From Microcaldota archaeon (GTDB taxonomy: Archaea > Micrarchaeota > Micrarchaeia > Micrarchaeales > Micrarchaeaceae): a stretch of DNA of 64,000 nucleotides. A program made the translations under genes and the position numbers. Positions 48,729 to 51,555 of the stretch are shown here, piece after piece (position 1 is the stretch's first letter; each line of letters starts with the position of its first letter). The notes beneath the pieces are model-generated. The model did no database searches and had not been told where the DNA came from. It saw only the letters and a list, made by a program, of their open reading frames with translations. The stretch spans positions 186,001 through 250,000 of the forward strand of contig JAJZJM010000001.1 in the NCBI GenBank assembly GCA_021810105.1, read 5' to 3'.

Positions 48729-49652
48729 ATGGAAACAAGAGACGGAAACGAGAGGGGAGAATTCCCAGGCATGGATGCTGCGAAGGAGATAGGGCAGATT
48801 TCGTATAAAGCCCTGCAGAAAGCAAAAGCGATGATAAAGCCAGGGGTTAAGCTTATAGATGTTGCAGAATCTGTTGAGTCTTATGTAAAAGAGAGCAAAT
48901 ATGGGATCGCCTTCCCCCTTAATCTTTCAATAAATAATGAGGCTGCGCATTACACCCCATCCATAGATGATGCCAAAGTCTTCTCAGAGAAGGACGTAGT
49001 GAAGGTAGACTTTGGAGCTGCAAAGGATGGCGCATTGGGGGACTGCGCTCTTACGGTTGACCTATCAGGAAATATGCAGGGCCTTTTGGAGGCTTCTGAA
49101 GAGGCGCTTAAGGCAGCCATATCTGTAGCAAAGGCAGGGGTGGAGGTCAGAGACATAGGAAAGGAGATAGAGAAGGCCATAATTGCAAAGGGCTATCAGC
49201 CTATACGCAACCTTGGAGGCCATACTGTAGGGCTGCACGAGCTTCATTCGAGCATCTTTGTGCCGAATTACGATAATGGTGATGAGACAGTGCTTGAAGA
49301 GGGAATGCTGGTAGCCATAGAGCCTTTTGCAACAACTGGCAAAGGGATGGTTACCGAGAGCGATGTTTGCGAGATATACTCATACGATGCCGGGGTGCAG
49401 GTGAGAACTAAGGAGGCGAGAACCCTGCTAGGCCTTATACAGAAAAATCACCCTACCGAGCCATTTGCGGTAAGGTGGTTGGCAAGCGCATTGGGATCTA
49501 CTTTTTCAACATATGCAGGGATATCAGAGCTATCAAGAAATGGGGCTCTGATGCCCTACCCTACGCTAGTTGAAATAAGCGGCGGCTCTGTATCACAAGC
49601 TGAGGCGGAAGTGATTATAGAAAAGGATGGCTGCGAAGTTGTCACTAAATAG
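48729..49652 (+). CDS. map: Methionine aminopeptidase, type II
   Basis: The 307-residue protein has the pita-bread features: AFPLNLSINNEAAHYTP, VKVDFGAAKDGALGDCALTVDL with two metal-binding aspartates, GGHTVGLHELH with the metal-binding histidine, and the late IEPFATTGKG and TLVEISGG. The insert between the two halves marks type II (archaeal/eukaryotic). It removes the first methionine from nascent proteins. Its stop codon is the last base before the right end of the IS element, so the gene is just intact. Confidence 0.95.
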   Translation: METRDGNERGEFPGMDAAKEIGQISYKALQKAKAMIKPGVKLIDVAESVESYVKESKYGIAFPLNLSINNEAAHYTPSIDDAKVFSEKDVVKVDFGAAKDGALGDCALTVDLSGNMQGLLEASEEALKAAISVAKAGVEVRDIGKEIEKAIIAKGYQPIRNLGGHTVGLHELHSSIFVPNYDNGDETVLEEGMLVAIEPFATTGKGMVTESDVCEIYSYDAGVQVRTKEARTLLGLIQKNHPTEPFAVRWLASALGSTFSTYAGISELSRNGALMPYPTLVEISGGSVSQAEAEVIIEKDGCEVVTK

Positions 49653-49667
49653 TGTATCTGACATCCT

Positions 49668-49688
49668 CCCACCACTGAAGGTGATGGG
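49668..49688 (-). repeat. IS605 right-end hairpin, likely tail of the guide RNA scaffold
   Basis: A 21-base imperfect palindrome (CCCACCAC/GTGATGGG arms around TGAAG, plus-strand sense) lies just inside the right end. In IS605 elements this hairpin is the TnpA recognition structure and, for TnpB, the end of the omega/reRNA scaffold, with the guide taken from the flanking DNA. Here that flank is the 3-prime end of map. Confidence 0.7.
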
Positions 49689-49716
49689 GTTCCTTTTGGT
49701 TCGGTGTCTCTACCGT

Positions 49717-50736
49717 TCATAGAGTTGCACCTCTGGGGATATCAGTGTTCCCCTTGAACACATCCCTGTCTGTGTTCAATTGACCTACGTTAGATTCTAA
49801 TGGTTGACGCAAAGCGATATTGAACGATGCATTTGCATCTGCGTGGTCAACGTGTCCACAACTGTGGCACACGAATTTCTTTGAATCCCTAATTCCTATG
49901 TTTCCACACCTTGAACACTCTTTCGATGTGTTTTTAGGCTCTACATAGGTTAGCGGCACTCCATATAATTCTGCCTTGTATTCGATGAAAGTCTGCAACT
50001 GGTAGAACGACCAACTGTGCAGACTGTAGTTGAATTTCCTTGAATGTTTTCTGTTTCCCCTTATCCCTTGAAGCTGTTCAAGTTTGATTCCTGCATTCTG
50101 GTCTTTTGCAATCTCAACAATTTCCTTTGAAATTTTATGATTGAGGTCTCTTACTATCCTTGATTCCCTGTTTTTTATCTTTTTGACCAAGCCATACTTT
50201 CCATGTCTCTGCAAATTCTTCCTGATACTTTTGTATTTGGTGTGGATGTGCAATGCCTCCTTTCCAAGCTTCCATACCTTTCCTGTATCGGCATTGCCGA
50301 CAACAGCAACATGTCCCGTTGTATTTCTATCAATACCGAGCCATGTCTTTGGTTCTATTATTGGTTGAGATTTAATATCTGCTGAAATATAAGCATACTC
50401 ATTGTCAAGTTCTATTTGATTGATTTTGTCAAAGTCGTTTCTGAAAGAATATTGTGTATAAAATTTCAAACAAGGAATCTCTATTTTTCTCTCTTCTTTA
50501 TTAAATTTTATGGATTGTGAAGGAACTGTTAATTTGATTCTGTTCACCGATTTTATGGTTTTATTATTCCCGTATTTCCTTAAAATCTGATTTGCAATTG
50601 CAGATTTTAGACCGAATTGTTTTACGTCCTTTGAAGACCTTGTTTTGTGGGTGAGAACAAATTCAGCAATTCTTTTTGCCTTATCGAGTTCTGGCGAGAA
50701 GTTCCTGTTATGCTTGATTTTGTATGTTAGAATCAT
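49717..50736 (-). CDS. tnpB: TnpB RNA-guided nuclease of IS605
   Basis: The 339-residue protein has the RuvC nuclease residues Asp136 (LGIDRNTTG), Glu220 (IKLEQLQG) and Asp300 (HADANASFNI), and a zinc ribbon with C274/C277 and C290/C293 (CSRCG...CHSCG). TnpB uses an RNA from the element's right end as a guide to cut empty donor sites, helping the element persist. It is shorter than many TnpB proteins (about 400) but keeps all catalytic parts. It starts at ATG 50736, 4 bases after the membrane ORF stop. Confidence 0.93.
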   Translation of the reverse strand: MILTYKIKHNRNFSPELDKAKRIAEFVLTHKTRSSKDVKQFGLKSAIANQILRKYGNNKTIKSVNRIKLTVPSQSIKFNKEERKIEIPCLKFYTQYSFRNDFDKINQIELDNEYAYISADIKSQPIIEPKTWLGIDRNTTGHVAVVGNADTGKVWKLGKEALHIHTKYKSIRKNLQRHGKYGLVKKIKNRESRIVRDLNHKISKEIVEIAKDQNAGIKLEQLQGIRGNRKHSRKFNYSLHSWSFYQLQTFIEYKAELYGVPLTYVEPKNTSKECSRCGNIGIRDSKKFVCHSCGHVDHADANASFNIALRQPLESNVGQLNTDRDVFKGNTDIPRGATL

Positions 50737-50740
50737 TGTG

Positions 50741-50980
50741 TCACTTTTTATAAAACAGTTTTACCATTAATAAAATTAGACCAATTGCTACAAGAACTAT
50801 GCCAAGATATATGTTATAGATTGCAGATAAATCTGTGCAACAAGGTATTATCGGTTGCCCTACAGTTTGTGCAGGACAACTGCACGCTCTGTTAAGGTAG
50901 GAAATTGCACTACCAATAGAGATTACAAACCCAAAAAGTATTGCAATTACACCGAAGATAATTAGCATATTTTGTTTCAT
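50741..50980 (-). CDS. Two-helix membrane protein carried inside IS605
   Basis: The 79-residue product has two hydrophobic helices (about residues 5-28 and 54-76) joined by a loop of ~25 residues with four cysteines (C33, C35, C47, C48). Its ATG overlaps the tnpA stop codon (ATGA) and its stop is 4 bases from the tnpB ATG, so all three are translated in one unit. IS605 elements normally carry only tnpA and tnpB. I recognise no family; it may be a passenger affecting the host membrane, or a regulator of the element. Confidence 0.75.
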   Translation of the reverse strand: MKQNMLIIFGVIAILFGFVISIGSAISYLNRACSCPAQTVGQPIIPCCTDLSAIYNIYLGIVLVAIGLILLMVKLFYKK

Positions 50981-51369
50981 ACATTATCCCATTGTTGTTC
51001 TATATATTTCTTTATCACTGTTGCAGAAACATTTCCTGCAGTTGAAATGAAATATGACCTTGTCCACAATGTTGGCATCTTCAAAAGCTCCCTAAACTCC
51101 TTTCGCAGGTATCTCGAAGTTCTGCCCTTAAACCTTTTTGCTACTATCTCTGGTCGTGTTCTTGTGTCGGCAGAAACAAAAAGATGCACGTGGTTTGGCA
51201 TAATCTCTTTTGCGATTATTTTCCAGCCATTTTCCATAGCCACATTTTCCATAATCTCATCTGCCCTTGTTTTTATAGCACCAACTAGAATTGACCTTCT
51301 GTATTTTGGACAGAAAACAATGTGGTAGTTTATCATCGCCACACTTGTTCTGTTGTGTTCGTATTCCAC
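50977..51369 (-). CDS. tnpA: TnpA Y1 transposase of IS605
   Basis: The 130-residue protein is the single-strand DNA transposase: the HUH pair H60-V-H62 in PNHVHLFVS binds the metal, and Tyr122 in IKKYIEQQ is the nucleophile. It excises and inserts the element as a single-stranded circle during replication. It starts with GTG at 51369 and overlaps the membrane ORF by 3 bases at its stop. Length is normal for the family, so it is probably functional. Confidence 0.95.
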   Translation of the reverse strand: MEYEHNRTSVAMINYHIVFCPKYRRSILVGAIKTRADEIMENVAMENGWKIIAKEIMPNHVHLFVSADTRTRPEIVAKRFKGRTSRYLRKEFRELLKMPTLWTRSYFISTAGNVSATVIKKYIEQQWDNV

Positions 51370-51438
51370 TTAATCCCTTTGATATGCGATACACCATCAA
51401 CATTTATATACATATACATCTGTCTAATCCGCATTCAT

Positions 51439-51459
51439 CCCACGATTGAAAGTCGTGGG
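51439..51459 (-). repeat. IS605 left-end hairpin
   Basis: Perfect 7-base arms CCCACGA and TCGTGGG around TTGAAAG (plus-strand sense), about 70 bases upstream of the tnpA start. It matches the right-end hairpin in loop and orientation, which is expected for the paired ends of this family. Confidence 0.75.
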
Positions 51460-51555
51460 CTTTCTGCTAATCATTCTGTAAAACAAAGAAAAAGAGAAGA
51501 TGCCAAGGCAAAAAATGCCTTGGCTTAAACCGCTATTGCTACTGTGCTAGGCTTA

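Follow-up and report, generated by a model that had tools for sequence, protein, structure and literature searches.

We analysed a window of 64,000 nucleotides from a Microcaldota archaeon (contig JAJZJM010000001.1, positions 186,001 to 250,000, forward strand) and found a complete insertion sequence (IS) of the IS200/IS605 type whose two transposon genes, tnpA and tnpB, are separated by an open reading frame (ORF) of 79 codons, called ORF79 here together with the other members of its family. The main point, which goes beyond an earlier note on this DNA, is that the position between tnpA and tnpB is an exchangeable slot. We consider it probable that this is a Micrarchaeota IS605-type transposon with an exchangeable, translationally coupled passenger slot, that ORF79 was captured into it and that the passenger benefits the envelope of the host. 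The earlier note had assigned the membrane ORF to the element and proposed a search for the same gene order and for the ORF alone. Both searches were successful: among 301 genomes, the tnpA-ORF79-tnpB order recurs in six further elements from five other genomes (G178, G237 twice, G139, G175 and G171), with 48–85% protein identity to the window copy by protein search and tblastn of fetched loci, and standalone relatives of ORF79 occur in other Micrarchaeota. The ORF thus belongs to the element, being found in the same place in seven elements from six genomes.

To see what else occupies this position, we compared the 23 tnpA copies with at least 70% identity, out of 45 found at E ≤ 1e-20 in the 301 genomes of the phylum Micrarchaeota (G, C and L numbers denote genomes, contigs and loci). 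A passenger was present in 15 copies and absent from seven, and one was undecided:

ORF79: seven elements in six genomes
54-residue soluble protein: four elements (G215, G242, G161, G132)
121-residue PH-like protein: one intact copy (G238) and one decayed copy (G143)
153-residue secreted-type protein with an N-terminal anchor: one element (G269)
76-residue C-terminally anchored (tail-anchored) protein: one element (G207)
No passenger: seven elements (G202, G148, G130, G141, G250, G052 and G147:C1, the last called from the first bases past tnpA only)
Undecided: one element (G268), at a contig edge

The slot genes belong to at least five mutually unrelated families. The gene found there changes from one related element to the next, which makes the position look like a slot with swappable content. 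The junctions are precise. In 20 of the 23 copies, the tnpA stop codon lies in an ATGA that also provides the start codon of the next gene; elements without a passenger read GGGATAATGTATGATTCTAAC, so that tnpB starts at the same ATGA at which passengers start elsewhere. The junction between passenger and tnpB is an ATGA overlap for the 54-residue, 76-residue and PH-like passengers and in L025, and a 4-base gap in the other ORF79 elements and for the 153-residue passenger. The PH-like passenger in L069 is reached through a mini-ORF of 12 codons (MNKNSMYIVIIW), which starts at the ATGA and overlaps the passenger start, as if to preserve translational coupling. Searches of Pfam, NCBIfam, PADLOC, PHROGs and PDB sequences gave no convincing function for the passengers other than ORF79; the PH-like protein matches bPH_5 below the cut-off (18.1 of 22.5 bits).

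Passenger type follows neither the tnpA nor the tnpB tree as reconstructed. When passenger labels were placed on the maximum-likelihood tnpA tree (20 rows), seven changes were required, compared with a mean of 7.0 for shuffled labels (142 of 200 shuffles were as low); on the tnpB tree (15 rows), five changes compared with 4.6 (200 of 200 as low). The approximately unbiased test rejected a single clade of ORF79 elements for both tnpA (p 2.6e-7) and tnpB (p 1.5e-6). Close tnpB genes in L023, L069 and L071 accompany three different passengers, as do close tnpA genes in L024, L026–L028, L070 and L072. The window tnpA groups with that of G130, which has no passenger, and the window tnpB with that of G269, which has the 153-residue passenger; the other gene rejects each of these pairings (p 0.010 and 0.0044), so that reassortment extends to tnpA and tnpB themselves.

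Synonymous divergence shifts in both directions at the passenger. Between the window and L023–L027, the number of synonymous substitutions per site (dS) is 0.29–0.58 for ORF79, 1.7 to saturated for tnpA and 1.2–3.1 for tnpB; the corresponding proportions of synonymous differences (pS) are 0.24–0.40, 0.67–0.78 and 0.60–0.74, an order that was reversed in none of 2,000 bootstraps. Conversely, L028 differs from L024 and L026 more in the passenger (pS 0.65 and 0.71) than in the backbone (0.38–0.50; reversed in 0.011 and 0.0055 of bootstraps), and L028–L027 points the same way more weakly (0.0585 of bootstraps reverse). Sliding-window identity shifts at the passenger borders. Together, the absence of linkage between labels and trees and the two-way shift of synonymous divergence at these borders show, at the level of sequence comparison, that passengers have been exchanged between element backbones. 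G237 holds two diverged ORF79 elements together and therefore offers an opportunity for exchange. Separately, in L077, L079 and L075 a close tnpA is joined to another type of TnpB, about 34% identical to that of the window (in the C-terminal part where present); as these tnpA copies carry a different TnpB type, this type has been exchanged too.

The conserved place and coupling of the passenger between tnpA and tnpB might also be expected if it were a third transposition protein or a regulator of TnpB, hence part of the transposon machinery. A second lineage lends this some support. Among the remaining 22 tnpA matches (41–52% identity), three (G142, G179 and G238:C11) have a two-helix protein of 81–85 residues with a GSCPxQ loop, encoded between tnpA and a 403-residue TnpB with overlapping starts, and four have tnpB directly next; the other 15 were not scorable owing to a contig end, lack of an adjacent tnpB or another Y1 type. 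By hhalign, the ORF of this lineage matches the ORF79 family with 95.6% probability and E 1.2e-8, values that may be too favourable owing to similar hydrophobic composition. Direct tnpA-tnpB overlap was seen in three more Y1 lineages of this taxonomic order (G191, G258 and G246:C59). Against a role in the machinery, relatives with near-identical tnpA or tnpB hold unrelated genes or nothing in the slot, and according to PMC9956272 IS608 and ISDra2 need no protein other than TnpA to transpose. We regard a transposition protein as improbable.

ORF79 has hydrophobic segments at residues 5–23 and 48–66, and its AlphaFold model is a helical hairpin (helices 2–33 and 51–78; mean predicted local distance difference test score, pLDDT, 77) whose loop holds C33, C35, C47 and C48. 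These cysteines and P36 are invariant in 13 of 13 aligned rows. ORF79 has all features of what we define here as the two-helix CxCPA loop family, namely two hydrophobic helices, CxCP and a second cysteine pair. The two-helix layout, in which the basic ends presumably both lie on the inner side and the four cysteines on the outer side, suggests that ORF79 encodes a small envelope protein containing disulfides or binding a metal. Foldseek with the model gave no match at E ≤ 0.001. No relative of tnpA or of the ORF79 family was found in the viral contigs searched, and a related-locus search of a collection of genome contigs returned the G178 copy (L022) alone.

Many small membrane toxins resemble such two-helix proteins, and the earlier note had considered an element-specific role in maintenance, for example addiction. 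The size of ORF79, its two membrane helices and its tight coupling to the transposon genes fit a toxin-like gene by which the element would secure its own retention. However, we found no partner ORF that could encode an antitoxin and no second small ORF beside the passenger; standalone ORF79 relatives occur singly in host genomes; the same slot holds unrelated soluble or secreted passengers in related elements, and nothing in seven of the 23 copies; and a PADLOC search gave no match. An addiction role thus finds no backing here and appears very unlikely. A host-derived envelope passenger is favoured over an addiction module.

Alternatively, the slot could be a neutral landing place that accepts any ORF compatible with start-stop coupling to tnpB, even one that serves neither host nor element. 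The diversity of passengers, which have no common theme, and the precise ATGA junctions would be in line with this, but the ratio of nonsynonymous to synonymous substitution (dN/dS) is 0.14–0.57 over 21 element-borne pairs of ORF79, 0.04–0.17 (where measurable) for the 54-residue gene and 0.06–0.23 for the PH-like gene, and the loop cysteines are invariant. This alternative is already disfavoured, and we give it little chance. By the same comparisons ORF79 is under purifying selection, and conservation and dN/dS rule it out as a chance frame, as the earlier note had also judged. In L027, where a frameshift lies near the ORF79 start, translation would resume in frame at TAATG, and the protein would be retained with a shorter N-terminus. 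Constraint on the synonymous sites of ORF79, for instance by RNA structure or an overlapping frame, might mimic recent exchange and would account for the exceptionally small dS of ORF79 between elements whose backbones have diverged, but is hardly credible given the high divergence of ORF79 between L028 and L024/L026 despite close backbones, the saturation of synonymous sites between ORF79 and the host copy L029, and the replacement of whole genes by unrelated ones in near-identical backbones, which requires exchange anyway.

Passenger genes also occur apart from the elements. A profile search with ORF79 found 24 places in 22 of the 301 genomes, seven of them being the elements and six of the genomes element carriers. 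Ten standalone loci read by hand have no tnpA or tnpB nearby, and tblastn of tnpA and tnpB over 16 standalone ORF79-related loci gave one weak tnpA-like stretch only (30% identity, L264). The standalone relatives share the loop pattern CxCPA...C(x)C. A protein tree of 17 rows, which left out five of nine added standalone loci, separated the seven element-borne ORF79 proteins from ten standalone ones across one branch with no real support (37/8). Most simply, these sequences would reflect one capture from a host family and later dispersal over several backbones; movement from element to host is a less simple possibility. For the PH-like passenger, standalone relatives have 27–37% identity in seven genomes and 85% in G222, and standalone relatives were also found for the 153-residue passenger. 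One host genome has three tandem relatives of the latter (L142, G165:C3, 1874–3680).

Some passengers appear to have stayed behind when the element decayed. In G246 and G247 (L135 2858–3377 and L136 3313–3832), an intact PH-like gene with a dN/dS of 0.21–0.23 relative to the element copy is accompanied by the tail of a tnpA and the remnant of a right end, making it a candidate domesticated passenger. In G147:C12 (L191/L155), an intact gene for the 54-residue protein lies between both element ends with tnpA and tnpB mostly deleted, possibly a passenger-only, non-autonomous element. Judging from these remnants in G246, G247 and G147:C12, passengers can outlive the transposon genes.

Several points weigh against the main reading, that of a slot with exchanged, captured and host-benefiting passengers. 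The DNA tree of ORF79 alone does not reject grouping by backbone (p 0.135), because the gene is short, and its low synonymous divergence could stem partly from constraint. All genomes in the comparison except that of the window are draft assemblies, mostly of many contigs, and as a result some slots are cut by contig edges. The host-to-element direction for ORF79 is presumed, its relatives being found in the 22 genomes of which six are element carriers, and in L135/L136 and L155 the selection seen may date from before the loss of the transposase genes. Finally, searches of Pfam, NCBIfam, PHROGs, PADLOC and PDB sequences gave no function for ORF79, and a benefit of the passenger to its host is itself an inference.

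How might such an element work? All three genes are probably transcribed into one message from a single promoter at the left end, and passenger translation would be coupled to that of tnpA through the ATGA overlap. The slot is either empty or occupied by a single gene, which comes from one of at least five unrelated families; ORF79 would be a captured member of the Micrarchaeota family of two-helix, cysteine-loop membrane proteins. The simplest route of exchange would run through two conserved, ATGA-containing stretches, the final ~25 bases of tnpA and the initial ~20 bases of tnpB, by homologous recombination or gene conversion. The passenger is most likely retained because it benefits the host envelope, and hence the element, rather than for transposition or addiction. 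According to PMC11870625, cleavage of empty sites by TnpB sets off recombination through which the element is restored or spread, and the same repair might conceivably swap passengers. More tentatively, and with considerable doubt, we propose a reading in which IS605 elements of Micrarchaeota serve as minimal gene shuttles: the tnpA-tnpB pair would be a platform with one translationally coupled slot, recombination with co-resident or incoming elements would re-load this slot, cleavage of empty sites by TnpB would promote passenger-swapping repair, small genomes would circulate envelope and other small genes by this means, and some passengers would be kept by the host after transposon decay.

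All parts that the earlier note had described are present in the window: tnpA, the two-helix ORF with four loop cysteines, tnpB, the ATGA overlap, the 4-base gap and the hairpins. The element itself was also confirmed, with ends at 49658 and 51477, a few bases off the 49653–51475 given there. From left to right end, the order is the TTAC flank, the left hairpin, a TATATAAAT box, tnpA, ORF79, tnpB and the right hairpin ending GATGTCAG:

51478..51481, minus strand: TTAC adjoining the left end, presumed target tetranucleotide (TTAC in 17 of 23 close copies)
49658..51477, minus strand: whole IS200/IS605-type element, ~1820 bases (end alignment of related elements; Pfam)
51439..51459, minus strand: left-end subterminal hairpin (2 of 200 shuffles fold as well; kept in relatives)
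51402..51410, minus strand: TATA-box-like TATATAAAT, ~33 bases upstream of the tnpA start (in nearly all aligned left ends)
50977..51369, minus strand: tnpA, Y1 HUH transposase, 130 residues, GTG start, stop codon within ATGA (Pfam, NCBIfam)
50741..50980, minus strand: passenger ORF79, two membrane helices and a CxCPA...CC loop (sequence, dN/dS, alignment, predicted structure); its ATG overlaps the tnpA TGA as ATGA
50737..50740, minus strand: 4-base gap from the ORF79 stop to the tnpB start (sequence)
49717..50736, minus strand: tnpB, RNA-guided nuclease family, 339 residues (Pfam, NCBIfam)
49668..49688, minus strand: right-end subterminal hairpin, the end reading GGAGGATGTCAG (end alignment, folding)
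49658..49860, minus strand: presumed omega-RNA region, tnpB 3' end and right end (RNA fold; Rfam sub-threshold match)

TnpA matches Pfam Y1_Tnp (E 2.8e-37) and NF033573, 'IS200/IS605 family transposase' (134.7 bits, cut-off 55), and contains HVH and the tyrosine of KKYIEQQW, which we take to be its transposase motifs. TnpB matches Cas12f1-like_TNB of Pfam (E 3.8e-24) and NF040570, 'RNA-guided endonuclease TnpB' (157.6 bits, cut-off 100). The TATATAAAT box is presumed, from its sequence, to be an archaeal promoter, a single one serving all three genes. TTAC lies at most 20 bases before the left-end motif AGCAGAAAGCCC in the 17 copies; the remaining six are copies with a variant left end, at a contig edge or with tnpA truncated. 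By energy, the right hairpin is not better than shuffles (65 of 200 as good); it recurs in relatives with differing stem sequences. The region 49658..49860 folds better as RNA than 200 of 200 shuffles (z −3.7), and an omega-RNA role for this right-end region is presumed on the basis of known TnpB biology. Full-length matches to HgcC (Rfam RF00062) were seen in three elements (window 49646–49755, L023 3450–3559 and L072 1845–1954, all minus strand), below threshold at 18.7–21.4 bits against a gathering cut-off of 50; their lying in the presumed omega-RNA region hints that HgcC RNAs may be TnpB guide RNAs.

The element is inserted 6 bases past the stop codon of a peptidase M24 gene (48729–49652, plus strand; assigned by Pfam), and its other neighbour is an ORF that is pilin-like as judged by its sequence alone. 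It is single-copy in the source genome (821 kb in five contigs, with one Y1_Tnp match overall). In other loci, a tRNA gene (L074) and a tRNA-like sequence (L073, by eye) lie just upstream of left ends, near insertion points.

IS605 and TnpB are generally described with tnpA and tnpB alone or together, and their persistence is an active question. If the reading proposed here is true, selected, exchangeable passengers would mean that even such minimal elements transfer genes of their hosts, and do so in an archaeal phylum whose genomes are very small. The near-identical backbones that differ in their passengers form a natural set in which effects of passenger and TnpB are separable, and the two-helix cysteine-loop family becomes an object for study.

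IS608 uses TTAC, and the window element shares with the IS605 arrangement a TTAC-type flank, a Y1 HUH transposase, a TnpB nuclease in the same element and subterminal hairpins at both ends in place of inverted repeats. It differs in its third, exchangeable gene between tnpA and tnpB, where IS605 usually has none, and in its short TnpB (339 residues); in PMC3627910 and PMC9956272, IS605 is described as having tnpA, to which tnpB may or may not be added. The nearest plasmid TnpA outside Micrarchaeota is less than 60% identical (177 records). Bacterial and Sulfolobus plasmid IS605 elements (ISSis2 and others) share a TnpA ~48–52% identical, but have no gene between tnpA and tnpB: in five of the six records examined the two genes adjoin and the sixth has no annotated TnpB, bearing out the earlier view that a passenger there is unusual. 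Integron cassettes and Tn3-family passenger modules likewise place many alternative cargo genes on one backbone. Here, only tnpA, passenger and tnpB lie inside the element ends, with no integrase (tyrosine recombinase) or attachment sites seen, and one gene is carried at a time, with homologous recombination as the simplest means of swapping. PMC9330008, which also describes Tn3 passengers, defines transporter IS (tIS) as IS derivatives carrying passenger genes. Like these, the window element is a simple IS with a passenger gene inside its own ends; unlike these, it has the passenger placed, with translational coupling, between its two transposon genes, and the gene at this exact position varies among related backbones. 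In the literature searched, which did not extend to subscription papers or ISfinder, we saw neither an IS605 element with a gene separating tnpA from tnpB nor an account of Micrarchaeota IS605 passengers; an earlier mention is possible. On the basis of the tIS definition, the IS605 descriptions and the plasmid comparison, we file the element as an IS605-family member and as a new variety of transporter IS: that an IS may bear a passenger is already known, and what appears to be new is an exchangeable, translationally coupled slot inside IS605.
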